Virus record (IMG/VR): IMGVR_UViG_3300034198_004213 | Coordinates: 1 to 27,528 of that record | Reading direction: 5' to 3' (one strand) | DNA from: a virus | DNA: 27,528 nt | Shown: positions 5,860 through 27,528 of the stretch, in pieces | Layout of the letters: the number at the start of each line of letters is the position of its first letter | How positions within the stretch are numbered: the stretch's first letter is position 1 | The notes under the pieces: generated by a model | The model's database searches: none | Told to the model about the DNA's origin: nothing | Seen by the model: the letters and a program-made list of their open reading frames with translations, nothing else | Translations under genes and position numbers: made by a program

Positions 5860-6362
5860 AAACCAAGTACATTCAATCGTACATGGCAACTGCTGAAATC
5901 TTTGCTGAGCATTCTTCAGCAAAGAGACTTCACGTTGGTGCAGTCATTGTAAAAGATGACCGTATCATTTCTATTGGTTACAATGGAATGCCAAGTGGTT
6001 GGGATAATACTTGTGAAGATAGAGACTATATGAGTTCTGATGCTGGCGGCTGGCTTAATCCAGATGAGATTGAGGAACGCTGGCCATTTGAAGATGAATC
6101 GGTGAAAAGTGGATATCGCAGATATGCATTGAAAACAAAACCTGAAGTACTTCATGCAGAAACTAATGCAATTGCTAAACTTGCAAAATCTACTGAGAGT
6201 GGTGATGGTGCTACTATGTTCATCACTCATGCTCCTTGTGTTGATTGTGCCAAGTTGGTTTATCAGAGTGGTATTAATTCTGTCTACTACCGCAACAGTT
6301 ATCGTGATGAAAATGGAATTGAATTCTTGAGAAAAGCAGGAGTAAAAGTTGAACAATTATAA
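5856..6362 (+). CDS. dCMP/deoxycytidylate deaminase family protein
   Basis: The 168-aa protein makes dUMP from dCMP, feeding dTMP synthesis for phage DNA. Zinc-site motifs are HAETNAIAKLA (H-A-E) and APCVDCAKLV (P-C-x-x-C). Other family blocks are KRLHVGAVIVKDDRIISIGY, NGMPSGWDNTCE and an insert before HAE, as in phage dCMP deaminases (T4 Cd is 193 aa). The C-terminal AGVKVEQL is typical. The start overlaps the preceding stop (ATGA). The next gene begins with TTG inside this gene's last codons. Confidence 0.92.
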   Translation: MKTKYIQSYMATAEIFAEHSSAKRLHVGAVIVKDDRIISIGYNGMPSGWDNTCEDRDYMSSDAGGWLNPDEIEERWPFEDESVKSGYRRYALKTKPEVLHAETNAIAKLAKSTESGDGATMFITHAPCVDCAKLVYQSGINSVYYRNSYRDENGIEFLRKAGVKVEQL

Positions 6363-6981
6363 ATCATACACATCGAATGTATTAGAAATTTGTGATAACG
6401 GTGATGCAATCATTGAATTGCCACCTGAATTATGTAAAGAAATGGGTTGGGAAACAGGCACAGTTTTAAACATCGAAGAAAAAGATGGTGCTATTTACCT
6501 CAACGAAGTAAAACCTATGGAGAAAAATATGAGTTTAACAATTAAGAATCTTGAGGCCGCTTTTGCAGGTGAGTCTCAAGCACATACAAAATATCGATAC
6601 TTTGCCAAATTGGCACGTGCAGAAGGTTTCGAAGATGTTGCAAAACACTTTGAACATACTGCTGACCAAGAGTTACTTCATGCATGGGGGCACCTTGAAT
6701 TATTGATTGGTAAACCTGATACCAAAAAATGTCTTGAAATGGCAATCGCAGGTGAGACAGAAGAATATACAAATATGTACCCTACAATGAAAGCAGAAGC
6801 AATCGTTGAAGGTAACCAAGAAGCAGAACGTGAAGCAGCACATCAAATTGCTGAATCAGAATACCATGCACAAGAATTTAGAAAAGTTCTTGCCCAAGCA
6901 GAGAAACGTTTTGCTGCGTTAGCTAAAGTTGAGAAACGTCATGCAAGTGCTTATCAAAAAATGTTACAGGAGATTCAATAA
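6349..6981 (+). CDS. AbrB-like domain fused to rubrerythrin-like diiron domain
   Basis: The 210-aa frame starts at TTG 6349, supported by AGGAG 6 nt upstream. Residues about 8-55 (NVLEICDNGDAIIELPPELC, then EMGWETGTVLNIEEKDGAI) form a SpoVT/AbrB-type swapped-hairpin domain, as in antitoxin-type DNA binders. From about residue 61, MSLTIKNLEAAFAGESQAHT, KHFEHTADQELLHAWGHLEL, AIAGETEEY and QIAESEYHAQEF follow the four-helix ferritin-like rubrerythrin pattern with Glu and E-x-x-H metal-ligand candidates. Rubrerythrins reduce peroxide using a diiron site and electrons from rubredoxin. An internal ATG at 6529 has its own GGAG (6519-6522, spacing 6) and would yield a 150-aa stand-alone rubrerythrin. 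So one gene may give two proteins. The next ORF is a mini-rubredoxin. Confidence 0.85.
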   Translation: MNNYKSYTSNVLEICDNGDAIIELPPELCKEMGWETGTVLNIEEKDGAIYLNEVKPMEKNMSLTIKNLEAAFAGESQAHTKYRYFAKLARAEGFEDVAKHFEHTADQELLHAWGHLELLIGKPDTKKCLEMAIAGETEEYTNMYPTMKAEAIVEGNQEAEREAAHQIAESEYHAQEFRKVLAQAEKRFAALAKVEKRHASAYQKMLQEIQ

Positions 6982-15383: not shown

Positions 15384-15391
15384 GATAAATA
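15384..15391 (+). promoter_or_regulatory. T4-type late promoter (GATAAATA)
   Basis: GGATAAATA (15383-15391) is identical to the hsp20 element and one base off the T4 late consensus TATAAATA. By the T4 spacing the start would be near 15397, inside the loop side of the hairpin described next. Confidence 0.6.
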
Positions 15392-15419: not shown

Positions 15420-16520
15420 ATGAAAATTCCATCGAAAGTTAATGTAGATACAGAAGGTAAAGTCTCAGGTGCTGGCTCAGAAGTTACTGCTTTGGCGGAA
15501 AGTTTACAGGCATATGCTTGTGCCACAAGGCAACACCTTGGTAAAGACTTGAATGATGTTTCTCAGATTACCAAATCTACAGTTGCTGATGCTGATTGTG
15601 ATAGAACACTTGATGCTTGTATGAAAGGTCTTGATGAGAATTGGTTCAGAAGTGTCGTGTTAACCGCTAACTTAATCTTTGAAGAAGTACCTGGTGCAAA
15701 GACAGGTAAGAATTTTAAATTTTATCGTGGTGGAAATTTAGTCAATTCAATCTATGATAATTGGCGCAAATTTAAAAAAGGTAGTGGTATCACAGGTGAT
15801 GACAAATGGAATCCTGCTGATATTTGGATGATTAAAAAAGGTTTCAAATTAAAAACCGAGTTTGATACTTTGACAGAGTACAATCGTTATGTTTATGATG
15901 AGTTTGCTTACACCAATATGATTGGTATTTCATTGAAGAAGATTGGTCCTAAGGACAGTCCACATTCTAAGTTTTTCAACAATGGCAAACCTCTTGTTGC
16001 ACAATTTACTGGTGTGAAACTTGGCATGAACATGACCGATTCGAAAGACATTTACATCAAGTATAAGTCTGAAGGTAAAGATGGTGAAGTTCAGTTACGT
16101 AATTTCTCAAGTCGTCCTGTACCATCATCATGGCAAGGCGAGATTAAAGGTAAGGCTGCAGCAGGTGGTAAAATTGGTGGTGGTGTTATTTTTGAAGGTG
16201 CAATTGAAACTGGTGTCAGTAAAACTAAGTTGACTTTACCTAATCAAACACCAATTGATAAACCATCAGATGCTGACTTTAAAAAGTTTGCAACAATGTT
16301 TAAAGAGTTATCAGGTTCAAAAGATAAATTAGAAACTTTGATTACTCAAGCAAAAGCAGGACACAGACAAGATAAGACTTGGTGGATGTCAAAGTATATT
16401 GGTATTGATTTAGTCTATACCGTTATCAAAGAAAAGAAGATGGATGCGTTGTGTAAATACATCTATGAGTATGCATCTTCAGCAACCAAAAACAGTAGTA
16501 TATTCATAAAGTATAGTTAA
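15420..16520 (+). CDS. Phage protein of unknown function, 366 aa, late-expressed
   Basis: I do not recognise the family. Visible features are MKIPSKVNVDTEGKVSGAGS at the N-terminus, a KFYRGGNLVNSIYDNW segment, WNPADIWMIKKGF near the middle, IYIKYKSEGKDGEVQLRNF, and a Gly-rich stretch GEIKGKAAAGGKIGGGV that looks like a flexible loop. No membrane segments or signal peptide. An L-A-E-S site near residue 28 fits the prohead-protease cleavage rule only loosely. The late promoter and the RBS-masking hairpin upstream suggest late synthesis, and the head-targeted genes that follow suggest a virion-linked or packaged role, which is inference. Confidence 0.75.
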   Translation: MKIPSKVNVDTEGKVSGAGSEVTALAESLQAYACATRQHLGKDLNDVSQITKSTVADADCDRTLDACMKGLDENWFRSVVLTANLIFEEVPGAKTGKNFKFYRGGNLVNSIYDNWRKFKKGSGITGDDKWNPADIWMIKKGFKLKTEFDTLTEYNRYVYDEFAYTNMIGISLKKIGPKDSPHSKFFNNGKPLVAQFTGVKLGMNMTDSKDIYIKYKSEGKDGEVQLRNFSSRPVPSSWQGEIKGKAAAGGKIGGGVIFEGAIETGVSKTKLTLPNQTPIDKPSDADFKKFATMFKELSGSKDKLETLITQAKAGHRQDKTWWMSKYIGIDLVYTVIKEKKMDALCKYIYEYASSATKNSSIFIKYS

Positions 16521-16521
16521 T

Positions 16522-17754
16522 ATGGACTTCAAACAATATTTAATCGAAGCGAAAAAAGAAGGTGCTAACCTTCACCTAGAACACCTTGAAGATGAAATTT
16601 TGAATCGTGGCGTTCGAGGTGGCCGTGATGCAATCAATTTCTTACAGGCATTGAGAGATATGCTTGCGGGTCATTCACAAGTAAAAGTAAACACTACAAC
16701 AAAATGGGATGGTTCTCCTGCAATCTTTTGCGGTATCAATCCAGACAATGGCAAATTCTTTGTTGGTACAAAAGGTGTATTCAATGCAAATGCAAAGTTG
16801 AATTACACCGATGCTGATATCGATACAAATCATCCAGGTGAAGGTCTAAATGCAAAACTTAAAGTTGCATTACGATATCTTCCAAAACTTGGTATCAAAG
16901 GTGTTCTGCAAGGTGATATGATGTTTGCAAAAGGTGATATCACAGAGAAGACATTTGATGGAGAAGACTATATCACATTTCAACCAAATACATTAATCTA
17001 TGCTGTGCCTTCTGGTTCTAAGTTGGCCAAAACAATGCAGGCTGCACAACTAGGTGTGGTGTTTCATACTTCATACACAGGCAAAACATTTGCTGATATG
17101 AAGGCATCATTCAATATTGACATTAAGAATTTAACATCAACTAAAGATGTTTGGTTTCGTGATGCATATTTTACCGATGCATCTGGTACGGCATCATTCA
17201 CCGAAGAAGAAACAAAACAAATGACTTACATTCTTTCTACTATTGGTGCAACATTCAAGCAAACAAATGCATTGTCTATTAATAGAATATCTTCAAGTGA
17301 TACAGTTAGAGAATACATTAAGACATTCAACAACACCAAAGTTAGAGAAGGTCAAAAGATTACAAACACCGCAGCACATACAAAAGAATTATTAAGATGG
17401 GTTGAAGATAGATTGAATAAAGATATTGTCTCTGCAAAGATGGAGAAGACAAAGAGAGATAAGGCGATGATTAAGAATGAAATCATGCGTACTCTCCGTG
17501 GTGCTGCAAATGATTTGATTAAAATGTTTGACATACAGAATGGCATGGTAGATGCCAAAAATATGGTCATCAAAAAGTTGCAACAGATGAAACAAGTTAC
17601 AAGTACATTCGTACAAACTGAAGATGGTTTCAAAGTGACAAATCCCGAAGGTTTTGTTGCAGTTGATAAGATATCAGGTAATGCAGTTAAATTGGTTGAT
17701 AGATTGGAATTTAGTCATTTGAATTTCACCGCACAGAAAAACTGGAGTAAGTAA
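16522..17754 (+). CDS. DUF6267-like protein with ligase-type KxDG motif and capsid-targeting-like N-terminus
   Basis: The 410-aa protein begins MDFKQYLIEAKKE, close to the T4 capsid-targeting pattern with an L-I-E|A cleavage site after residue 9. HLEHLEDEIL follows. TTKWDGSPAIFCG contains K61-x-D-G, like motif I of covalent nucleotidyltransferases (DNA/RNA ligases, capping enzymes); downstream FFVGTKGVFN, GVLQGDMMF and GFVAVDKISGN may be motifs III, IV and V. A helical, Lys-rich segment (residues about 290-370) follows. I recall such proteins as DUF6267 in aquatic T4-like phages. Ligase activity is not shown for that family as far as I know. It may be an injected end-joining or RNA-repair enzyme. 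Confidence 0.7.
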   Translation: MDFKQYLIEAKKEGANLHLEHLEDEILNRGVRGGRDAINFLQALRDMLAGHSQVKVNTTTKWDGSPAIFCGINPDNGKFFVGTKGVFNANAKLNYTDADIDTNHPGEGLNAKLKVALRYLPKLGIKGVLQGDMMFAKGDITEKTFDGEDYITFQPNTLIYAVPSGSKLAKTMQAAQLGVVFHTSYTGKTFADMKASFNIDIKNLTSTKDVWFRDAYFTDASGTASFTEEETKQMTYILSTIGATFKQTNALSINRISSSDTVREYIKTFNNTKVREGQKITNTAAHTKELLRWVEDRLNKDIVSAKMEKTKRDKAMIKNEIMRTLRGAANDLIKMFDIQNGMVDAKNMVIKKLQQMKQVTSTFVQTEDGFKVTNPEGFVAVDKISGNAVKLVDRLEFSHLNFTAQKNWSK

Positions 17755-18035
17755 TGGCTGATAAAAAGTTTGATTTGAATGAAATCTTTGCTGAGTATGG
17801 TGAAGATGATTTTGGTTTTACTGCGACTGATGAGGCAGAATATAATTCAGTTATTGCACAGAAAGAAGAAACAGTCGAAGAATACAAAGACCGTTTAGTA
17901 CAAGTAGAGAAACTAATTCTACCATTCTTAATGCAATTGTTAAAGACCGCTGACCAACCAATCATCAAATGGCCAAATCGCAAACCAATTATTGAATCAC
18001 AGATTCAAAAGATTCTGAATCTAACAAGAGGTTAA
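17754..18035 (+). CDS. Small conserved phage protein, 93 aa
   Basis: The acidic N-terminal half (MADKKFDLNEIFAEYGEDDF, then GFTATDEAEYNSVIAQKEET) is followed by a predicted coiled helix (VEEYKDRLVQVEKLILPFLM) and a basic end (IIKWPNRKPIIESQIQKILN). Its ATG overlaps the preceding stop (TAATG). I recall homologues next to similar genes in aquatic T4-like phages but no function. The helical, amphipathic nature and the neighbourhood would suit a small structural or assembly protein. It has no capsid-targeting-type N-terminus. Confidence 0.7.
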   Translation: MADKKFDLNEIFAEYGEDDFGFTATDEAEYNSVIAQKEETVEEYKDRLVQVEKLILPFLMQLLKTADQPIIKWPNRKPIIESQIQKILNLTRG

Positions 18036-18036
18036 T

Positions 18037-18375
18037 ATGGATTTCAGAGACTTCAAAGAATTACAGGAAGCTGCATATGCCGGTAACATTGGCATTATGG
18101 AACTAATTAAGTTCAAAAGCAAAGCAACACCAGAACAGAAAAAGAAATTTGATGATTTGTTGAAGAACAAAAAAGGTAAAGAAGTGTGGGACTTGGTACA
18201 AGATGTTACTGGTATCAAGTTACACAAATCGGTACATGAAGAAGTTAAACCTAACATTCTCCCAAAATCTGGTGCTGGTGCATGGGGTACGCAAGATTTA
18301 GTAGATACATATAAGAAGGACACACCTGGTCAAACACCAAAAAAGGTAAAGTCATTTAAAGAATACAAAAAATAA
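18037..18375 (+). CDS. Small protein with capsid-targeting-like N-terminus, 112 aa
   Basis: The start MDFRDFKELQEAAYAGNIG has the short acidic/aromatic leader and an L-Q-E|A site after residue 11, as expected for prohead-protease processing. The rest is helical and basic (IMELIKFKSKATPEQKKKFD, then LVQDVTGIKLHKSV), ending DTPGQTPKKVKSFKEYKK. I recall 'AYAGNIG' proteins in aquatic T4-like phages, uncharacterised. After cleavage it would be a small basic internal head protein, comparable in size to T4 IPI-IPIII. AAGAGG lies before its ATG. The sugar cassette follows. Confidence 0.7.
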   Translation: MDFRDFKELQEAAYAGNIGIMELIKFKSKATPEQKKKFDDLLKNKKGKEVWDLVQDVTGIKLHKSVHEEVKPNILPKSGAGAWGTQDLVDTYKKDTPGQTPKKVKSFKEYKK

Positions 18376-18393
18376 TTGTTACGTGAGGTTATT

Positions 18394-19260
18394 ATGAAAG
18401 ATATTGTGGTAGGGTGTATTACTAATTACACTTTTGATAAAATTGAACCGTGGGTAAATTCTTTAGACCGTTCAGGATTTGACGGTACTAAACTTATGAT
18501 TTGTTACAACATTGGTTATGATGTTGTAGAGGAATTAAGCAAACGTGGTTACGTTGTGTTTGGTTTCAATCGTAATGATACATTACGGAGACTAGAGTAC
18601 GACAAGAAAGATTTCAATATCTGCCTTGAACGTTTCATTCATATCTGGTACTTCTTAAATAAACTCCAAGATAAAGAACAGTTCCGTTACGTCATTTCTA
18701 CTGACGTTAAGGATGTTATCTTTCAGAGTAATCCATCTACATGGCTCGAAGAAAACATTGGTGATAAACAAATCAATGTTGCGAGCGAATCAATCAAATA
18801 CAAAGACGAAGGTTGGGGCAACAACAATCTATACCAATCGTTTGGTCCTTTTGTACACGACATGAACAAAGAAAACACAATCTACAATGCCGGCACCATT
18901 GCAGGCAAGTTTGATGTTGTACTTGATTTGTTCTTAAACATCTACTTGGCCTGTGGTGGCGCACCATCGAATGTTCCAGGTGGCGGTGGTCCAGACCAAG
19001 CTGCATTGAATGTATTGTTGAACACAGTATCATATAAGAACATTACCAACTTTGCACCAAGTGAATCAGGTTATGCGGCACAATTAGGTACAACTGCTGA
19101 CCCATCTAAGATTGACCAGTTTAGACCTTTCTTGTTAGAACCAACTCCTATCTTTGAAGATGGTATTGTGAAAACATCTACAGGTAAACCTTTTGCAATC
19201 GTACATCAGTATGATAGGGTACCTGAATGGCGTGCTATCATTGAAGAGAAATACCGATGA
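18394..19260 (+). CDS. Glycosyltransferase-like protein (GT-A fold predicted)
   Basis: The 288-aa protein begins MKDIVVGCITNYTFDKIEPW, has YVISTDVKDVIFQSNPSTWL (a D-x-x-D segment at the position of the metal-binding motif of nucleotide-sugar enzymes), TIYNAGTIAGKFDVV and GGGGPDQAALNVLL. The N-A-G...G-x-D-Q-A pattern is common in family 8-like and related transferases that read sugar nucleotides. Start 18394 has GAGG 6 nt upstream; the frame can extend to TTG 18376 without a ribosome binding site. It is first of six coupled genes. Donor and acceptor are unknown. Confidence 0.7.
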   Translation: MKDIVVGCITNYTFDKIEPWVNSLDRSGFDGTKLMICYNIGYDVVEELSKRGYVVFGFNRNDTLRRLEYDKKDFNICLERFIHIWYFLNKLQDKEQFRYVISTDVKDVIFQSNPSTWLEENIGDKQINVASESIKYKDEGWGNNNLYQSFGPFVHDMNKENTIYNAGTIAGKFDVVLDLFLNIYLACGGAPSNVPGGGGPDQAALNVLLNTVSYKNITNFAPSESGYAAQLGTTADPSKIDQFRPFLLEPTPIFEDGIVKTSTGKPFAIVHQYDRVPEWRAIIEEKYR

Positions 19261-19877
19261 ACTTCAGTTTTGGAATTACAACCGATTACTCCGACCAGAA
19301 TCGGTTGAATGAAATCATATCTTCTATTCGTAGTTTGCAAATACCAAATTATGAAATAATGGTTATTGGTGGACAAAAACCGGAAGACAAACAGGATGTG
19401 AATCATATCTTCTTTGATGATACTGCGAATCCAGGTTGGGTAACACGTAAGAAGAATACTCTTACACAGGCCGCAAAGTATGACAACGTAGTTATTTTCC
19501 ATGATTACTTTGTGTTTGAAAAAGATTGGTATAAAAACTTCTTAGAATTCGGTGATGATTGGGATGTTTGTTCTAATGCACAGTATTTAATTTCGGGCAA
19601 GAGACACTTCACAGATTGGGTTGTATGGGATTCACCAATCTTTCCACGTTACTGGTCACTAAACTATGACGATTGGTCGCACACTAAGTATATGTACCAA
19701 TCAGGCGGTTACATGATTGTTAAGAAACAATTCATGGAGAAGTTCCCATTAAATGAGAAAATGATTTGGGGTACTGGTGAAGACGTTGAATGGTCTTTGC
19801 GTATGCGTGATAAAGCAAATTGGAAATGTAATGGTAAATCCATTGTGACACATAATAAGGTTCATCGTGATGCATAA
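19257..19877 (+). CDS. Family 2-like glycosyltransferase
   Basis: The 206-aa protein starts MNFSFGITTDYSDQNRLNEI, with NPGWVTRKKNTLTQAAKYDN (nucleotide-sugar pocket), VVIFHDYFVFEKDWY (H-D in place of D-x-D) and WGTGEDVEWSLRMRD, the E-D segment typical of the family 2 catalytic base. It is short but has all core blocks. It overlaps the upstream gene by ATGA and the downstream gene by about 8 bases. It probably adds a sugar to a surface or nucleic-acid acceptor; the target is not visible. Confidence 0.75.
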   Translation: MNFSFGITTDYSDQNRLNEIISSIRSLQIPNYEIMVIGGQKPEDKQDVNHIFFDDTANPGWVTRKKNTLTQAAKYDNVVIFHDYFVFEKDWYKNFLEFGDDWDVCSNAQYLISGKRHFTDWVVWDSPIFPRYWSLNYDDWSHTKYMYQSGGYMIVKKQFMEKFPLNEKMIWGTGEDVEWSLRMRDKANWKCNGKSIVTHNKVHRDA

Positions 19878-21240
19878 GTTAATTATTTTTGACCTAGATG
19901 GTGTATTGATTGAGAGTAGAGAACTTCATTATCATTCATTGAATGATGCTCTATCCAGAGTTGGTGGAGATTACATTATCTCCCGTGAGGAACACCTATC
20001 AATCTATGATGGGTTGAGCACAACTAGAAAACTTGAAATGTTGTCTGAACGTAAAGGTTTAGACCGCAAGTTTTTCAATCAGGTCTGGCAAGACAAACAA
20101 ACTGCCACATTCAATCTGATTCGTAGAATTCCAAAGAACAATGACCTACGCCAGATGTTTGCAGGCATTCAATCACGGGGTTATAAGATTGCCGTTGCAA
20201 GCAATTCTATACGTGAGACTATCAAACTTGCCCTTCTGTCCATCGGTGTTATGGAATATGTTGACTATTACGTTTCGAATGAAGATGTTAAGAGAACAAA
20301 ACCTTACCCTGAAATGTACTGGCAATGTATGACTGCTTTAAATGCACTTCCTAAAAGTACAATTATTGTAGAAGATAGTCATATTGGGCGCCAAGGTGCA
20401 ATTGATAGCGGTGCTCATCTATTGCCCGTTGAGAACTCAAGGGACTTGACTTCATATAAAGTTTTTAGTAAAATCGATGAGGTTGATGAAAACGGACACA
20501 AACAAACTATACCATGGAGAGATAAGAAATTGAATGTACTAATCCCTATGGCAGGCGCAGGCAGTAGATTTACACAAGCTGGCTACACATTCCCTAAACC
20601 TCTGATTGAAGTCAGAGGCAAACCAATGATTCAAGTTGTTGTTGAGAACTTGAATATTGAAGCAAACTATATTTTCTTGGTGCAGAAATCACATTATGAG
20701 AAATACAACTTGCAATCTGTACTAACCATTCTGAAACCAGGATGTAAGATTGTTCAAGTTGATGGTCTAACTGAAGGTGCTGCCTGCACTACACTACTCG
20801 CAAAAGAATTGATTGATAATGATGAACCACTTGTTATGGCAAACTCTGACCAGTTTGTTGAGTGGGATTCAAACAACGTTATGTACTCATTCACCGCAGA
20901 TGGCATCGATGGTGGTATTCTAACATTCAAGGCCACACATCCTAAATGGTCATATGCAAAACTAGATGAGAATGGTTTTGTATCGCAAGTCGCAGAAAAG
21001 AATCCTATCTCTGATAATGCAACAGTAGGTGTTTACTACTGGAAGAAAGGTTCTGATTACGTTAAATATGCAGAGCAAATGATTGAGAAGAACATTCGCA
21101 CCAATAATGAATTCTATGTCTGTCCAGTATTCAACGAAGCAATTGCAGGCGGCAAAAAGATTCGTGTTAAAGAGATATCCAAGATGTGGGGTATTGGAAC
21201 ACCAGAAGATTTAAACTACTTTTTAGAGAACCATAAATGA
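19870..21240 (+). CDS. HAD phosphatase fused to sugar nucleotidyltransferase
   Basis: Residues 1-205 are a HAD-superfamily domain: LIIFDLDGVLIESRELHYHS (motif I D-x-D), IAVASNSIRETI (motif II Ser), KRTKPYPEMY (motif III Lys) and IIVEDSHIGRQGAI (motif IV), similar to beta-phosphoglucomutase. From about residue 219, LNVLIPMAGAGSRFTQAGY, FPKPLIEVRGKPMI, LVMANSDQFVEW and the end MWGIGTPEDLNYFL are the RmlA/GlmU-type nucleotidyltransferase blocks (G-x-G-x-R, K-P). The fusion would dephosphorylate or isomerise and activate a sugar phosphate. The start is ATG 19870, or GTG 19867, which is better spaced from AAGG (19857-19860). It is the donor-making step of the cassette. Confidence 0.85.
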   Translation: MHKLIIFDLDGVLIESRELHYHSLNDALSRVGGDYIISREEHLSIYDGLSTTRKLEMLSERKGLDRKFFNQVWQDKQTATFNLIRRIPKNNDLRQMFAGIQSRGYKIAVASNSIRETIKLALLSIGVMEYVDYYVSNEDVKRTKPYPEMYWQCMTALNALPKSTIIVEDSHIGRQGAIDSGAHLLPVENSRDLTSYKVFSKIDEVDENGHKQTIPWRDKKLNVLIPMAGAGSRFTQAGYTFPKPLIEVRGKPMIQVVVENLNIEANYIFLVQKSHYEKYNLQSVLTILKPGCKIVQVDGLTEGAACTTLLAKELIDNDEPLVMANSDQFVEWDSNNVMYSFTADGIDGGILTFKATHPKWSYAKLDENGFVSQVAEKNPISDNATVGVYYWKKGSDYVKYAEQMIEKNIRTNNEFYVCPVFNEAIAGGKKIRVKEISKMWGIGTPEDLNYFLENHK

Positions 21241-21923
21241 GCAATTATCAGAAAATATTTACATTTGATGACGGTCCAGTCCAGTATGAAAACTCAGGCA
21301 AAGACCATATCAAAATGAAACAACATCCTTTTCCCTATTCAATTAAGGAAGAGGAATTCAACTTCATCACAGACACCATTGTAAAGTATGATTTGAAACG
21401 TGGTTATGAATGTGCTACCGCATTCGGTGTTTCAACAATGGCATGTGCATTAGGTTTCAAACAAACCGGTGGTAGAATGGTCACAATGGATGCATACATC
21501 GAAGAAGATACTGCTAATCCTGAGGCATATAAAAATCACGAAGAGAAACAAACATTTTCTGATTCTGATGGTTACAAATCTGTAGTGTATCTACGTGAGA
21601 AATTTGGTGTACAAGACAACCTAGAGTGTGAAGTTGGTTGGTCACCTGATGATACAGAGAAAACAATTCGTAAACATTTTGGTGACGAGAAGATTGACTT
21701 TGTATTCCTTGATGCAGGACATTTCCCTGGCCAGATTATCAAAGACATTGATTCGTTTGTACCGTTCTTAGCGGAGAAGTTTGTTGTATTGTTCCATGAT
21801 GATTACACATGGAGTTTTACACAAGATGTACACAATCACATCCAGAATGTATTTGGTTGCAAAACAGAAATTTTTATCCCTCATCCAAGAGGTGAGAACT
21901 TATCAGGAGTTATCAAAGTATGA
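21237..21923 (+). CDS. Class I SAM-dependent methyltransferase-like protein
   Basis: The 228-aa protein has YECATAFGVSTMACALGF (a variant of motif I), RMVTMDAYIEED (acidic ribose-binding end of strand 2), DKIDF-like KIDFVFLDAGHFPGQIIKDI (motif IV region) and FVVLFHDDYTW. This matches the small-molecule/sugar methyltransferase group often found in polysaccharide clusters (Methyltransf_24-like). An insertion around residues 85-120 is acidic. It overlaps both neighbours by ATGA. It probably methylates the sugar made by the cassette, by position only. Confidence 0.7.
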   Translation: MSNYQKIFTFDDGPVQYENSGKDHIKMKQHPFPYSIKEEEFNFITDTIVKYDLKRGYECATAFGVSTMACALGFKQTGGRMVTMDAYIEEDTANPEAYKNHEEKQTFSDSDGYKSVVYLREKFGVQDNLECEVGWSPDDTEKTIRKHFGDEKIDFVFLDAGHFPGQIIKDIDSFVPFLAEKFVVLFHDDYTWSFTQDVHNHIQNVFGCKTEIFIPHPRGENLSGVIKV

Positions 21924-22372
21924 GATTGATTGCACATCGAGGCCTAATGTATGGCCCAAATAAAGAGATTGAGAATCATCCCGATACAATCGAAGAAGCT
22001 TGGGCTAATGACTTTGATTGTGAAATAGATTTATGGCGAATCGACCACAGGTGGTTCCTTGGCCATGATGCACCCACATATGAAGTGCCAAGTTATTTCT
22101 TAATGCTTGGTCGTTCATGGTTTCATTGTAAAAACTTTGAAGCACTAGATTGGTTGAGTACTTGGTCAAAAGGAATTAATTTCTTCTGGCACCAAAAGGA
22201 TAACTATACCATGACCAGTTTCGGATATGTGTGGGCATATCCTGGTCAATCTGTCGGTGACAACACCATCTTTGTAATGCCTGAACAGGTGATGAAATTA
22301 GAAGATGTGAAGACATTGAAATGTTTCGGTGTCTGTAGTGATTACGTTAATGATATTAAAGGTATGTTATGA
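21920..22372 (+). CDS. Short GDPD-like (glycerophosphodiester phosphodiesterase family) protein
   Basis: The 150-aa protein starts MRLIAHRGLMYGPNKEIENH and continues CEIDLWRIDHRWFLGHDAP. H-R-G, E-N-x-P-x-x-I, E-x-D and G-H-D are the GDPD metal and catalytic motifs. The family's usual length is about 240 aa, so part of the TIM barrel is missing; it may be a reduced form. It sits in the sugar cassette between a methyltransferase and a glycosyltransferase with ATGA overlaps. Its substrate could be a phosphodiester-linked polymer or a lipid head group. Confidence 0.75.
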   Translation: MRLIAHRGLMYGPNKEIENHPDTIEEAWANDFDCEIDLWRIDHRWFLGHDAPTYEVPSYFLMLGRSWFHCKNFEALDWLSTWSKGINFFWHQKDNYTMTSFGYVWAYPGQSVGDNTIFVMPEQVMKLEDVKTLKCFGVCSDYVNDIKGML

Positions 22373-23331
22373 AAATTTGTTTTGTTGTTCATCGTTATGC
22401 TCCATTTCCTGGCGGGTCGGAGTATTATGTTCAGCAGATGGCTGAAGAATGCGTTCAACGTCACCATGATGTGACTGTTCTTGCAGGTGAACATCAAGGC
22501 GATTTGAATGGTGTACGTGTGACAAGTGAAGCACATCACCTACATGACCAAGATTTGGTCGTTGTACATGGCGGTGATGTTCATGTACAAAACTTTGTAT
22601 TATCCAACGCAAAGAACATTAATTCACCAATGTTGTATATGCTCATCAAACCTTCTGATAGTCAGGTTTGTGTACAAGCAATGCAAGATGTTGCCTTCAT
22701 TGGTTGCTCTGCACCAGAGGATTGGGAACATGTTGAGAAACACGGACTAAAACAAAAGGCACACCGAGTTATTCATGGTATTTCACCTACCGATTGTATC
22801 GGCACAAAAGGTAAGTTTAAGAAGAAATACGGTATTCCTGAAGATAAAGAAATGTTCTTGTCTTGCGGTGGGTATTGGCCAAACAAACAGATGATTGAAT
22901 TGGCGGAGTGTTTTAAACGTGCCAATAGACCTAATGCTGTACTCGTTACAACTGGTTATGATAATCGATTCGGTATCATGCCACATGCGTCCGAGACGGT
23001 CATTCCATTGATGGTTGAAGACCCTATGGATGTCAAAGATGCAATTGCCGATGCTGATTGTTATGTGATGAATTCAAATGCCGAAGGTTTTGGTCTGGTA
23101 ATCTTAGAATCTATGATTAACAAGACACCATGGATTGCACGTGAAATTGCTGGCGCAAGATTGTTACACAACTACGGCACCACATATCATAAAGAAGATG
23201 TTTTGATTGAACATATCAAAGAGTTTAAACGTAATGATAAACTTGTCAAAGATGCATTTCAATATGTTATTGCGAACCATTTAATTAAGAACACAGTAGA
23301 TGACATTCTGGCACTAATAAATACTAAATAG
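22369..23331 (+). CDS. GT-B glycosyltransferase (family 4-like)
   Basis: The 320-aa protein starts MKICFVVHRYAPFPGGSEYY, the G-G-S/A-E acceptor loop of family 4 enzymes. The C-terminal domain has FLSCGGYWPNKQMIELAECF and NSNAEGFGLVILESM, the E-x7-E motif (E239, E247) that binds the sugar nucleotide. It is somewhat short for the family (about 370 aa). It ends the cassette, 30 nt before the next gene, and late-promoter elements overlap its end. It may transfer the sugar prepared by the upstream proteins. Confidence 0.85.
   Translation: MKICFVVHRYAPFPGGSEYYVQQMAEECVQRHHDVTVLAGEHQGDLNGVRVTSEAHHLHDQDLVVVHGGDVHVQNFVLSNAKNINSPMLYMLIKPSDSQVCVQAMQDVAFIGCSAPEDWEHVEKHGLKQKAHRVIHGISPTDCIGTKGKFKKKYGIPEDKEMFLSCGGYWPNKQMIELAECFKRANRPNAVLVTTGYDNRFGIMPHASETVIPLMVEDPMDVKDAIADADCYVMNSNAEGFGLVILESMINKTPWIAREIAGARLLHNYGTTYHKEDVLIEHIKEFKRNDKLVKDAFQYVIANHLIKNTVDDILALINTK
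23316..23330 (+). promoter_or_regulatory. Tandem late-promoter-like elements before the 754-aa gene
   Basis: AATAAATA (23316-23323) is directly followed by CTAAATA (23324-23330). The first matches T4 late TATAAATA at 7 of 8 positions and overlaps the stop region of the glycosyltransferase gene. Predicted start is about 23329-23336; the gene's ATG is at 23362 with GAGG and GGAG just upstream. Confidence 0.5.
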
Positions 23332-23361
23332 AAGATAAACTTAACTGCTGTAGAGGCGGAG

Positions 23362-25626
23362 ATGAAATTTAGAGAATTTATTACGGAAGCCAAAACTGGC
23401 AAGGTTATCGTTGTGTACGGTGGTGGATTCCAGCCGTTCCACGCTGGCCACATCAGTTCATATGAACAAGCAAAGCGAGCATTTCCTTCTGCTGATTTCT
23501 ATGTTGCGTCCAGTAATGACGTTAAACAACGTCCAATCCCCTTCAAAGATAAACAATTTCTTGCCCAACAGGCAGGCGTAACTGACGCTTTTGTACAAGT
23601 TTCACAACCAGTTAATCCACAAGAAATTCTCACCAAATACAATCCCGACAAAGATATTCTTATTCTTGTCCGTTCAGAACGTGACCCTGTTAACTACACT
23701 AAAAAAGATGGTTCTTCAGCATATTATCAACCGTTCAAATCCTTAAAAGACTGTAAACCATTTAATCCCAAAAAAGATGGTCATGGCTATGTTTTTGTCA
23801 CCAAGAAAAAAGTGTTCTCTATTGGTGGCAAAGAAATATTTTCAGGCAGTCAAGTTCGTTCAATGTATTCAAAAGGTGATGATATTGAACGTAGAGATAT
23901 GATTAGAGATTTATATCCGAAAGCGAAATCCCCATTGAAAGTTAAAACATTGCTAGACAAATACATCGGCGGTGTAAATGAAGAAGTTGACCTAGATGAA
24001 GCGGTTCAACATATCATTTCAGAAGGTGTACACGATAAATCAATCTTCAAGGCAGTATTTCTTGCTGGTGGTCCAGGTTCTGGAAAAGATTATGTACTCG
24101 ACAATACACTTGCTGGTCACGGACTAACAGAACTTAACTCAGACAAAGCTTTAGAGTTTTTAATGGACAAAAGCGGTCTTGATAAGACTATGCCTGCATC
24201 TGAAACAGAAAAGCGTGATATCGTTCGTGGTAAGGCAAAGAGTCTTACAGACCTACGTCAACGTTTGGCTCTATTAGGCCGTAATGGCCTTATCATCAAT
24301 GGTACAGGTGATGATGTTGAGAAGATTAAAAAGATTAAGGCACGTTTGGAAGAAATCGGATATGATACGCATATCATTGTTGTCAATACTGCCGATGAAA
24401 TTTCTGCACAACGTAATGTAGAACGTGGCCAGCGTGGTGGACGTACAGTACCAGAAAAGATTCGTAAACAAAAGTGGGATGCTGTTCAAAATGCACGTCC
24501 AGAACTTGCAAAGATTTTTGGTGACAATTATGTGGAGTTTGATAACTCAGAAGATTTACGACAAGCACCACCTGAAGTAGTTAAGGCCAAAAAAGACGAA
24601 ATGCTAAATGTATTTAAGAAGATTAAAGCATTTACATCGGCACCGCCAAAATCACCAGAATCCCAATTATGGATTGCTAGTGAAATGTCTAAAAAAGATA
24701 AACTTGGTGTTCCTAAATCTGGTGAAGGTACTCAATTGGCACCACATCCAGATTCAGGTGCTGCTGAAGAAGCCAAGAAACTTGGCCTATCATATTTTGG
24801 TTTTGGTCGTTGGGGTAAAGAAGGTGTTGTTACACACCATTCAGTACACGATTCTCTAGTGCCTATTGAGAAAGAAAAAATAGGTCAGAAAACATTAAAG
24901 ATTGCTGCACCAGGTCAATCTAAGACCACAAACTCTACAATCAATAAGGTACAAATGAATCCGACCAAAGTTAATGAAGACTTTGAAAATTTCTTGACCG
25001 AAGCAGTAGCAATTACCGTTGAGGCAGAAGAAACTTTTGATATTCATCAAGAGGAAAAAAAACAAGAGTTGCACCATAACCAACTACTAAAAAGTAGTAA
25101 TGGTAAAGTAAAAACTTTTATGTTACGCCGTGCAGCCGCAAAAGAAGCACACATCAATGGTGGTGTTGTGCATAAACAAGGCGCAGGTTATGTTATTAAA
25201 ATAAAGGAGAGCGAAGATGTTTCAAGCATTAATCAACCTATTCAAGAAGCAACCACAGGTAGAAGTACCGTACAAAGTGGAAGTACCACAAGTACAAGAA
25301 GTCTTGTCCCCGAAAGTGGAGACTCCAGTTGTGACTGTGGAACCTGCAGCAGTTGTGGAACAGAAGGCACCCGCCAAAAGAAAAGCGTCACCGAAGCCAA
25401 AAAATTATGGCAGAAAAAAGTCAGTACCGAAGCAATAGATGCTGGTACTGAGGCTGGCATGTCTTTAAGTGGTGCATCAAAAGAAAAATTAGACAAAAAT
25501 GGTAAAGTCACTATGACTGAACTGACAGGTGATGAAACCACTTTGTCTATTGGTGACCAAAAAGAAGATGAGTTGAAAAAAGTTGGTATCAATCTATCAA
25601 CATTCAAAGCAAAGAAATTCGTATGA
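23362..25626 (+). CDS. Multi-domain packaged-protein candidate: cytidylyltransferase-like + P-loop kinase-like + C-terminal modules
   Basis: The 754-aa protein starts MKFREFITEAKTGKV, a capsid-targeting-like leader with I-T-E|A after residue 9. Residues 14-200 have VVYGGGFQPFHAGHISS (the H-x-G-H motif of nucleotidyltransferases such as NMN adenylyltransferase) and IFSGSQVRSMYSKGD, like the closing I-S-x-T/S-x-x-R motif. Residues 230-420 are a P-loop domain: FLAGGPGSGKDYV (Walker A 236-243), with INGTGDD and an Arg-rich lid (VERGQRGGRTVPEK), kinase or zeta-toxin-like. A small module near 572-613 includes MLRRAAAKEAHINGG. Further [L/I]-x-E|[A/G/S] sites lie after residues 213, 221, 547, 616 and 629, all between modules. 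Residues about 618-690 overlap another gene and are Ser/Thr/Cys-rich. Substrates unknown. Confidence 0.8.
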   Translation: MKFREFITEAKTGKVIVVYGGGFQPFHAGHISSYEQAKRAFPSADFYVASSNDVKQRPIPFKDKQFLAQQAGVTDAFVQVSQPVNPQEILTKYNPDKDILILVRSERDPVNYTKKDGSSAYYQPFKSLKDCKPFNPKKDGHGYVFVTKKKVFSIGGKEIFSGSQVRSMYSKGDDIERRDMIRDLYPKAKSPLKVKTLLDKYIGGVNEEVDLDEAVQHIISEGVHDKSIFKAVFLAGGPGSGKDYVLDNTLAGHGLTELNSDKALEFLMDKSGLDKTMPASETEKRDIVRGKAKSLTDLRQRLALLGRNGLIINGTGDDVEKIKKIKARLEEIGYDTHIIVVNTADEISAQRNVERGQRGGRTVPEKIRKQKWDAVQNARPELAKIFGDNYVEFDNSEDLRQAPPEVVKAKKDEMLNVFKKIKAFTSAPPKSPESQLWIASEMSKKDKLGVPKSGEGTQLAPHPDSGAAEEAKKLGLSYFGFGRWGKEGVVTHHSVHDSLVPIEKEKIGQKTLKIAAPGQSKTTNSTINKVQMNPTKVNEDFENFLTEAVAITVEAEETFDIHQEEKKQELHHNQLLKSSNGKVKTFMLRRAAAKEAHINGGVVHKQGAGYVIKIKESEDVSSINQPIQEATTGRSTVQSGSTTSTRSLVPESGDSSCDCGTCSSCGTEGTRQKKSVTEAKKLWQKKVSTEAIDAGTEAGMSLSGASKEKLDKNGKVTMTELTGDETTLSIGDQKEDELKKVGINLSTFKAKKFV
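25217..25438 (+). CDS. Nested ORF in an alternate frame: Pro/Val/Lys-rich 73-aa protein
   Basis: This ORF lies wholly inside the 754-aa gene in another frame, with its own AAGGAG (25204-25209) 7 nt before ATG. The product starts MFQALINLFKKQPQVEVPYK and continues with PQVQEVLSPKVETPVVTVEP, then a basic end (AKRKASPKPKNYGRKKS). A hydrophobic N-terminal helix plus a Pro/Val/Lys tail looks like a genuine small phage protein. The overlapped part of the host frame has an odd Ser/Thr/Gly/Cys composition (for example SSCDCGTCSSCGTEGT), which suggests that the nested frame is under stronger constraint here. Confidence 0.6.
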   Translation: MFQALINLFKKQPQVEVPYKVEVPQVQEVLSPKVETPVVTVEPAAVVEQKAPAKRKASPKPKNYGRKKSVPKQ

Positions 25627-26000
25627 AATCCTTAAAAGAATTTATTAACGAAGGAGGTCGTTGCTGGCCAGGTTATAAAGCTGTAAAAGGCAAAGAACCT
25701 TTTTCTCCAGGTAGTTGCGAAAAAGTATCAGAAGAATCTGCCGCATGGCAACGCAAAGAAGGTAAGAATCCTGAAGGTGGTTTAAACCGCAAAGGCATCG
25801 CTTCATATCGCCGTGAAAATCCTGGTTCCAAACTGTCAATGGCAGTTACAACACCCCCATCTAAATTGGACCCCGACAGTAAGGCAGCAAAGCGCCGCAA
25901 ATCATTTTGTGCTAGAATGTCTGGTGTTGATGGACCAATGAAGAAACCTAATGGTGAACCAACACGCAAAGCATTGGCATTAAAAAAATGGAATTGTTAA
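25623..26000 (+). CDS. DUF6321-like basic protein with capsid-targeting-like N-terminus, 125 aa
   Basis: The start MKSLKEFINEGGRCWPGYK has an I-N-E|G site after residue 10, and closely matches the T4 internal-protein leader (M-K-x-x-x-E-F-I-x-E). Behind it, CWPGYKAVKGKEPFSPGSC and then KNPEGGLNRKGIASYRREN, KAAKRRKSFCARMSGVDGPM and RKALALKKWNC are what I recall as the DUF6321 phage domain, rich in Lys, Arg and Cys. Four or more Cys could bind metal. It overlaps the previous stop (ATGA). A small DNA-binding protein packaged with the genome is a reasonable inference. Confidence 0.75.
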   Translation: MKSLKEFINEGGRCWPGYKAVKGKEPFSPGSCEKVSEESAAWQRKEGKNPEGGLNRKGIASYRRENPGSKLSMAVTTPPSKLDPDSKAAKRRKSFCARMSGVDGPMKKPNGEPTRKALALKKWNC

Positions 26001-26031
26001 TAGGTAACAAAGAATAATAAAAGGAGAACTT

Positions 26032-26787
26032 ATGTTCAAAGATAAAATTAATCAATCGGTGGCAGAAGCTGCTGCAAAAATTATGATGGGTGAAAAAGCA
26101 TTACATCCAAACCAACAAAAGTTGGATGTGCATGAACCAGAGAAAGATGAATTGACTGCTGACGATTTCAAAAAACTTCGTGCTAAAAAAGAAGTAAAGC
26201 AAGAAGAAGTTGAAGGTTTGCTTGAATATGAAACCAACAAAGATGGTAAATACGTACACAATGCAAAAACAGGCAGATATGGTGGTTCAGAAAAACCAAC
26301 AGACCCGTTTGCTGGTGTTCGTGGTCCATCTACCGCTGCTCTTTCAGCAATTGAAAAAGAGAAGCAAAAGAAGAAGAAGAAATTCTCTGAAATGGTAGAT
26401 GTTTACAATACTACTGGTATCAAAGGTCTATTCGAAGAACTTCAGATTGCGAAAGAAGAAGCTTCACAAGAAGAATTTAATGCTGAATTAGAAAAGCAAA
26501 AAAAGAAAGCATCTGGTACTGCTGCTGAAGCAGATAAAGCAAAAGTTGCTAAGCCAGCAGTTCAAGCAGTTCAGCAAGAAGAAATTCAAGTCATTAATGC
26601 AGACATTGCAAATGGTGTTGATACTGTTAACATTGCAGAACGTGAACTTACTGGTGGTGAAATGAAGAAAAAAGAAGAAATCGTTATGAGCATGAAAAAA
26701 GGTATCGAAGGTTTCAAGTCTCGTTACGGTAAAGATGCTAAGTCTGTAATGTACGCAACTGCTACAAAACAAGCTAAAGGCGAGTAA
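26032..26787 (+). CDS. Charged helical phage protein, 251 aa, possible head or core protein
   Basis: The protein is rich in Lys, Glu and Ala. It begins MFKDKINQSVAEAAAKIMMG, with V-A-E|A resembling but not strictly matching the prohead-protease rule, has long charged helices (EKEKQKKKKKFSEMVDVYNT, EEFNAELEKQKKKASGTAAE) likely to form coiled coils, and ends EEIVMSMKKGIEGFKSRYGK then DAKSVMYATATKQAKGE. I recall that ending in uncharacterised proteins of aquatic T4-like phages. Composition resembles T4 prohead core proteins, but no direct homology can be claimed. AAGGAG precedes its ATG. The next gene begins in its stop codon. Confidence 0.7.
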   Translation: MFKDKINQSVAEAAAKIMMGEKALHPNQQKLDVHEPEKDELTADDFKKLRAKKEVKQEEVEGLLEYETNKDGKYVHNAKTGRYGGSEKPTDPFAGVRGPSTAALSAIEKEKQKKKKKFSEMVDVYNTTGIKGLFEELQIAKEEASQEEFNAELEKQKKKASGTAAEADKAKVAKPAVQAVQQEEIQVINADIANGVDTVNIAERELTGGEMKKKEEIVMSMKKGIEGFKSRYGKDAKSVMYATATKQAKGE

Positions 26788-27528
26788 TGAAAAAGTTTCG
26801 TCAACTATCTGAACAATTGGATATGCCTTCTGCTAATGGTAGAGCAGCTGGACGTTTCTCGTCTGGTGCTTCGAAGAAAGTTATTCCAACACAAACTCAA
26901 GCAACACCACGCAGAGAAGTTGACGAAGCCTCACCAGAAGCAGGTGAAGATATTAACAATCAACCATCACCTGCGTTAGTTCGCAAGAATGGAAAAGTTA
27001 AAACTGCTGATGCATTACCTGATGCTGAAATGGGTGGCACTATGTCACGTTATATGCCAGAAGAACGTATGTCTGCCGCAGTTAAATTACAAAGAGCATT
27101 TCAACGTCAGCAAGAGAAATCTGCAGCATCACGAAAAAGAGCAGAAGAACTTTTAAGACCAAAACAAGAACCAGTAAAACCAGTTAGTGAAGATTTGCGT
27201 AAGTGGTTTAGTAAGACTGATCCCGAAGGTGGTTGGAAAAGAATCAATAGTAAAGGTGAAGCAATTGGTCCTTGTGCAAGAGAACCTGGTGAACCTAAAC
27301 CGAAATGTATGTCTAATGAAAAAAGAGCATCATTAAGTAAAAAAGAAAGAGCCTCGGCTGTTGCCTCTAAAAGAAAACATGACCCGAATCCTGAAAGAAA
27401 AGGTGAACCAATCAATGTTTCCAATTTTGGAAAAGGAAAGATAAGTGAACATATGGAAAACTTAAACGAAAAAAATGAACCAACAAACCCTGAGTTGTGG
27501 TCAAGAGCAAAAGCACTAGCCCGTTCTA
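26787..27528 (+). CDS. DUF6321-like basic protein with targeting-like N-terminus, 3' truncated by window
   Basis: The frame is open from ATG 26787 to the right edge (247 codons seen). The start MKKFRQLSEQLDMPSANGRA has L-S-E|Q in the position of the cleavage site (Gln rather than Ala/Gly after it). The centre is flexible and rich in Pro, Arg and Ala. DPEGGWKRINSKGEAIGPCA, KPKCMSNEKRASLSKKERAS and KHDPNPERKGEPINV form a DUF6321-like basic Cys-containing domain, related in style to the 125-aa protein two genes upstream. NPELWSRAKALARS begins another known phage segment cut by the edge. TAATG couples it to the previous gene. Confidence 0.75.
   Translation, partial: MKKFRQLSEQLDMPSANGRAAGRFSSGASKKVIPTQTQATPRREVDEASPEAGEDINNQPSPALVRKNGKVKTADALPDAEMGGTMSRYMPEERMSAAVKLQRAFQRQQEKSAASRKRAEELLRPKQEPVKPVSEDLRKWFSKTDPEGGWKRINSKGEAIGPCAREPGEPKPKCMSNEKRASLSKKERASAVASKRKHDPNPERKGEPINVSNFGKGKISEHMENLNEKNEPTNPELWSRAKALARS

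Follow-up and report, generated by a model that had tools for sequence, protein, structure and literature searches.

Capsid-targeting-like leaders on enzymes of an aquatic T4-like phage: a candidate set of head-packaged proteins

The internal proteins IPI, IPII and IPIII of bacteriophage T4 are late head proteins whose unrelated bodies stand behind a common N-terminal propeptide of about ten residues, with aromatic targeting residues and the gp21 protease site [L/I]-x-E (PMC9026906, PMC12373910). For IPIII the first ten residues are enough for packaging; targeting depends mainly on residues 4 and 7 and processing on residues 8 and 10, and gp21 cuts after L/I-x-E (PMC9026906). Here we compare with these proteins a block of genes in a 27,528-nucleotide stretch of viral DNA (IMG/VR record IMGVR_UViG_3300034198_004213, positions 1 to 27,528; the whole stretch is called the window below), in which five proteins begin with leaders of a similar kind. 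The best reading of the block, which we hold with considerable confidence, is that leaders of the capsid-targeting sequence (CTS) type, removable by protease, package enzymes into the phage head.

Alt of T4 is an ADP-ribosyltransferase. It is a gp21-processed protein of the T4 head that is ejected, and offers a second parallel (PMC9026906). The T4 internal proteins are small, and those of known function inhibit type IV restriction enzymes, whereas the phage described here has larger enzyme bodies and sites also inside fusions. The NMNAT/cytidylyltransferase of cyanophages is homologous to one enzyme of the block, carries the same type of leader and was detected in virions by mass spectrometry (PMC3037559, PMC9146016, PMC9602691, PMC10665884); these papers offer no targeting mechanism and discuss possible co-purification. 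In our phage, unlike the cyanophages, NMNAT is fused to a kinase, and the lineage is different. PhiKZ-like phages and SPN3US have a gp21-like protease that cuts many head proteins behind a Glu residue, and these proteins are thought to be ejected (PMC9026906, PMC7411985), but the cut motif is another one (S/A-x-E in phiKZ), the inner protein mass is large, and there is no T4-like short leader. The kind of system is known; the new part is the enzyme-rich cargo with sites at domain junctions in aquatic T4-like phages. Among the open-licence papers searched (subscription journals were not covered), none links the cyanophage virion enzymes to a CTS.

Leaders of the block and their conservation

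The window covers part of a T4-like phage genome, with the genes of clamp, clamp loader, polymerase, UvsX and gp41 type arranged in order. It shows 99.975% identity across 27,493 bp to an 88,399-bp contig (G001), which is the same virus, and its gene order after gp41 resembles that of Melnitz (Methylophilales), HTVC008M (Pelagibacter) and cyanophages. No match to PF03420 was found within the window, a fragment of the genome; G001 encodes a gp21-type prohead protease (gene at 16721; Peptidase_S77, E 3.8e-33) together with a scaffold and a major capsid protein. By inspection, gp21-type sites are present in the virus's own head proteins, YLTE/S in the protease and QIME/A in the capsid protein (a slash marks the cut).

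All five leaders (Table 1) close with the site [L/I]-x-E, as the sequence-only reading had reported. The same reading called them near-identical. They are all present as written, but this description was overstated: three (16522, 23362, 25623) fit the T4-type pattern [FYL]xx[FYL][LIVMF]xE and have the targeting residues of IPIII positions 4 and 7, while those at 18037 and 26787 share the site only. A sixth leader, MFKDKINQSVAEA at 26032, was dropped; its site is not kept in homologues. Such leaders were found neither in 19 upstream genes tested nor in the genes of the glycosyltransferase island (18376-23331), which is a natural control because it lies inside the same block. DUF6267, ORF112 and DUF6321 each contain a single [LI]-x-E-[AGSDQ], the one in the leader.

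How well are the leaders conserved? Counted from the cut, residues 4, 7, 8 and 10 of IPIII are P7, P4, P3 and P1. Among 110 distinct DUF6267 leader DNAs, aligned with P3 and P1 fixed by anchoring, 98 encode F at P7 and 94 encode F or Y at P4, and P6, P5 and P2 are variable. The conserved columns coincide with the IPIII residues on which targeting and processing depend. A spacer of 2 to 8 residues follows the site in DUF6267 homologues and indels adjoin it; E9 is nearly invariant although body identity drops to about 50%. The reverse pattern, in which bodies are conserved and leaders are not, is not what we found in this lineage.

Similar leaders also precede different bodies within the DUF6321 family (RCWPGHK, DLRKWF, DWSKVNK, GRPSQRH). 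EDLRKWF as a cut site occurs in 11 of 11 sequences, but its E is possibly part of the domain, and we give it little weight. The family related to the first block protein, phrog_1462, has a leader in other phages (Melnitz MQGFKTFLSEA, L010 MGSFKNYLNED). A PD-(D/E)XK nuclease was considered for this protein from a motif impression only, with no Pfam or fold match, and is not claimed. Other leader-bearing proteins are an S-adenosylmethionine (SAM) lyase in the relative G005 and a RimK-type ATP-grasp enzyme in Melnitz; the latter gene (L001, 82-1131) lies far from the block and begins with MTQKFSQFITEE, a strict leader. The lineage has the leader block widely. Within that of G005, two genes at 100103-100814 (in L164) look by eye like IscA-like and IscU-like iron-sulphur assembly proteins.

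Chance or composition could also be proposed: AT-rich genes often begin with MKF..F..E, A+T-rich codons favour K, F, I and E, and two of the five leaders are loose. Counts of the leader speak against it. The strict leader stands on 196 of 3,241 genes from related loci, while shuffled N-termini give 7.4 expected and 14 at most, a ratio inflated by the collection of these loci through homology to leader proteins; at internal Met positions of the same loci its frequency is 0.26%. The leader is moreover conserved at about 50% body identity with indels beside the site. Chance is strongly disfavoured and seems to us hardly credible.

Enzyme bodies, domain junctions and late promoters

In 41 DUF6267 sequences K61, D63, G64, G131, D132, E376, G377 and K390 are invariant. 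The protein has the covalent nucleotidyltransferase motif I, KxDG, and its later motifs were assigned by our own reading; the top PDB match in a fold search, a DNA ligase IV complex, was non-significant (E 0.17, probability 0.60). We call it ligase-like, not a proven ligase. The 754-aa protein matches CTP_transf_like PF01467 with 33.5 bits (cut-off 21) and zeta-toxin-like PF06414 with 44.7 bits (cut-off 22.3). It has [LI]-x-E-[AGSDQ] at residues 9, 213, 221, 547, 616 and 629, none of them in the nucleotidyltransferase domain or the kinase core.

Here NMNAT and kinase form one fusion protein, the kinase coming second, with IISE/GVHDK in between. As a separate gene it begins MKTFAELQE/GVYDPN in Melnitz and MIPFILKE/GLYDPG in HTVC008M. 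Such a site lies ahead of the kinase domain in all 28 distinct sequences, whether N-terminal or within a fusion, while the background for a site in a five-residue window is 6.9%. The jumbo-phage homologue of Atu_ph07 has VTE/GVND, and therefore the conservation at this junction may partly be a property of the domain itself. The earlier idea that the kinase-like enzyme is loaded by a leader stands only in part, as the kinase here lacks a separate leader and has the internal site instead. In the ORF112 family the site precedes YAGNIG in 19 of 19 sequences though the upstream leaders are mutually dissimilar; in L048 it lies 212 residues into an open reading frame (ORF), and L066 has it as the link between a HAD-like sequence and the YAGNIG domain. 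The location of cut sites between domains suggests that polyproteins are processed within the capsid only.

The bodies also bear on another explanation, namely that the leader proteins are morphogenesis factors of the prohead core, targeted and cut like gp67 and gp68 and acting in head assembly or DNA organisation, never in the host. T4 core proteins have the same protease sites and most of their fragments exit the head (PMC9026906); the small basic proteins encoded in the block might be DNA-binding components of the head, and the wide distribution of the block would fit as well. However, a scaffold would hardly be expected to have NMNAT, kinase and SAM lyase folds, and the enzyme domains are without cut sites, whereas core proteins are cut to pieces. 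We regard this role as unlikely.

The exact T4 late promoter TATAAATA was not found in the window; the late-promoter core of this lineage (L147-L166) seems to be [AC]TAAATA instead. In three genomes (G001, G004 and G005) this motif has a strand bias of 18:1, 25:2 and 49:12 and lies 12-56 nt upstream of gp18, gp19, gp22 and other structural genes of head and tail. In all three it also stands ahead of the first block gene and of the NMNAT-kinase gene, and in G005 ahead of the SAM lyase with a leader. Its positions in the window are 15385, 23317 and 23324. Judged by these motifs, the leader block would be transcribed late.

Table 1. Features of the leader block (window coordinates; slash, cut site, with leader coordinates ending before it)
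Feature	Position	Strand	Remarks
Late-promoter-like motif ATAAATA	15385..15391	+	35 nt upstream of first block gene (15420); same place in G001, G004, G005
phrog_1462 protein, 366 aa, leaderless in this phage	15420..16520	+	
Leader MDFKQYLIE/A of DUF6267, strict T4-type	16522..16548	+	
DUF6267 protein, 410 aa; ligase-like motifs KWDG (61), LQGD (129), PEGF (375), VKLVDR (389)	16522..17754	+	
Leader MDFRDFKELQE/A, non-canonical spacing, site before AAYAGNIG	18037..18069	+	Site in 19/19 distinct homologues
ORF112, small protein, 112 aa	18037..18375	+	Pfam, PHROG: no match
Inserted island of glycosyltransferase, HAD-nucleotidyltransferase and methyltransferase-like genes, leaderless	18376..23331	+	
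Two overlapping late-promoter-like motifs, ATAAATA and CTAAATA, upstream of NMNAT-kinase gene	23317..23330	+	
Leader MKFREFITE/A, strict T4-type	23362..23388	+	
754-aa fusion: NMNAT/cytidylyltransferase-like (from ~residue 18) and zeta-toxin/AAA_33-like P-loop kinase (from ~residue 230)	23362..25626	+	PF01467, PF06414, PF13671 above cut-offs
Internal site ISE/GVHDK preceding kinase domain, cut after residue 221	24016..24024	+	28/28 distinct sequences; N-terminal in Melnitz, HTVC008M
Leader MKSLKEFINE/G, strict T4-type	25623..25652	+	
DUF6321 protein, small, basic, 125 aa	25623..26000	+	PF19846 above cut-off
Leader-like MKKFRQLSE/Q, non-canonical spacing	26787..26813	+	
ORF247, basic, truncated by window end	26787..27528	+	Homologue of S-CREM2 virion protein ORF160

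Two further observations, both made by eye, concern the window outside the block. The gene at 6349-6981 looks like an AbrB-type N-terminus fused to a rubrerythrin, and at 2116-2769, between clamp-loader genes, YIYGLFETS...EVFYIGESR resembles a fragment of a GIY-YIG nuclease.

Homologues in cyanophage virions

Virion proteomics had been proposed as a check of packaging, and published lists do place leader-bearing homologues in the virions of three cyanophages. Cytidylyltransferases were detected by mass spectrometry in S-SM1 (T4-GC190; PMC3037559), S-SZBM1 (_140; PMC9146016) and S-CREM2 (ORF154; PMC10665884), and all three begin with a strict leader. Four other S-CREM2 virion proteins have a leader: the SAM lyase (MKDFDSFLEE), ORF13, the APH/ChoK-like kinase (VKRFDAFLTEE) and ORF136. 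The virion protein ORF12 of the same phage (L141, 7704-10313) contains RFASFMAEA (residues 18-26); its annotation as Cas9 is doubtful, as it gave no match to a Pfam domain. The SAM lyase genes (PF23780) of S-CREM2 (L141, 3837-5081) and G005 (131153-131701, in L165) both have targeting-like leaders and bodies that begin with SSLSR directly after the site.

In S-CREM2 the leader occurs in 5 of 52 virion proteins and in 2 of 167 others (Fisher p 0.009, for one of a number of related patterns tried). Only patterns that include aromatic residues separate the two groups; loose [LIMF]-x-E patterns were not significant (p 0.13 and 0.19). The leaderless DUF6267 homologues S-SZBM1_141 and S-CREM2 ORF87 are absent from the published virion tables of both phages. 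The cytidylyltransferases of PA5oct and phAPEC6 are leaderless too, and the PA5oct gene is without the electrospray ionization tandem mass spectrometry (ESI-MS/MS) note of its neighbours, which is consistent with packaging by leader but weak.

Could the N-terminal motif have some other role, such as partner binding or regulation of translation, with the virion homologues being a co-purified late protein? The authors of the S-CREM2 study themselves raise the caution of co-purification (PMC10665884), and [L/I]-x-E on its own is a frequent motif: 15% of internal Met positions match the loose pattern. Nevertheless, the leaderless homologues went undetected in virions of the same phages, the conserved columns are the T4 targeting and processing residues, and the site is kept at internal junctions, where an N-terminal role is impossible. 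This explanation appears very improbable.

Several facts weigh against packaging by CTS-type leaders. The leaders at 18037 and 26787 keep [L/I]-x-E but not the aromatic spacing and are non-canonical. The site is absent from a few DUF6267 homologues (two cyanophages, L179 and L182), and the NMNAT proteins of L133 and L134 are leaderless. Looser patterns in S-CREM2 gave p values of 0.06 to 0.19, making the result pattern-dependent. The virion proteins ORF155, 156 and 160 of S-CREM2 have no canonical leader, so other packaging routes may exist or leaders may have degenerated there. Virion detection concerns homologues from published work only, the presence of a leader-bearing DUF6267 in virions is a prediction, and cutting after the site would follow from T4 precedent.

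Proposed mechanism and significance

Packaging by CTS-type leaders would proceed as follows. The block would be transcribed late from [AC]TAAATA promoters, as head genes are, and the leader would bring each protein into the prohead core. There the gp21-type protease would cut after [L/I]-x-E and remove the leader, and at the site ahead of the kinase the same protease probably splits the NMNAT-kinase fusion. The ligase-like DUF6267, NMNAT, the P-loop kinase and the small basic proteins would then remain in the head, probably to be ejected with the DNA. Packaging and trimming are likely, and for this phage itself we infer packaging. Injection with the DNA is suggested by analogy with T4; its timing before any transcription, as the sequence-only reading had it, follows T4 precedent and is not fully supported. 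The proposal of head-loaded, injected enzymes otherwise gains from the T4-like leaders, the gp21-type protease, the late-type promoters, the conservation of the site and the homologues in virions, and loses from the two non-canonical leaders.

More tentatively, the head may hold a modular, protease-released enzyme kit, in which one leader type serves ligase-like, NMNAT, kinase, HAD-like, ATP-grasp and SAM lyase bodies, fusions are split in the capsid, and the products are injected ahead of all phage gene expression, either to weaken defences or for nucleic-acid repair and NAD supply. That these enzymes act jointly at entry, repairing nucleic acids or supplying NAD, is speculative.

Enzymes have been found repeatedly in cyanophage virions with the route of their entry unstated and co-purification possible. 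A short leader readable from sequence would explain their packaging and would make cargo predictable in aquatic T4-like phages, a very large group. The leader type and SSLSR start shared by the S-CREM2 virion SAM lyase and its G005 counterpart point to injected counter-defence; an injected SAM lyase would act directly against restriction.

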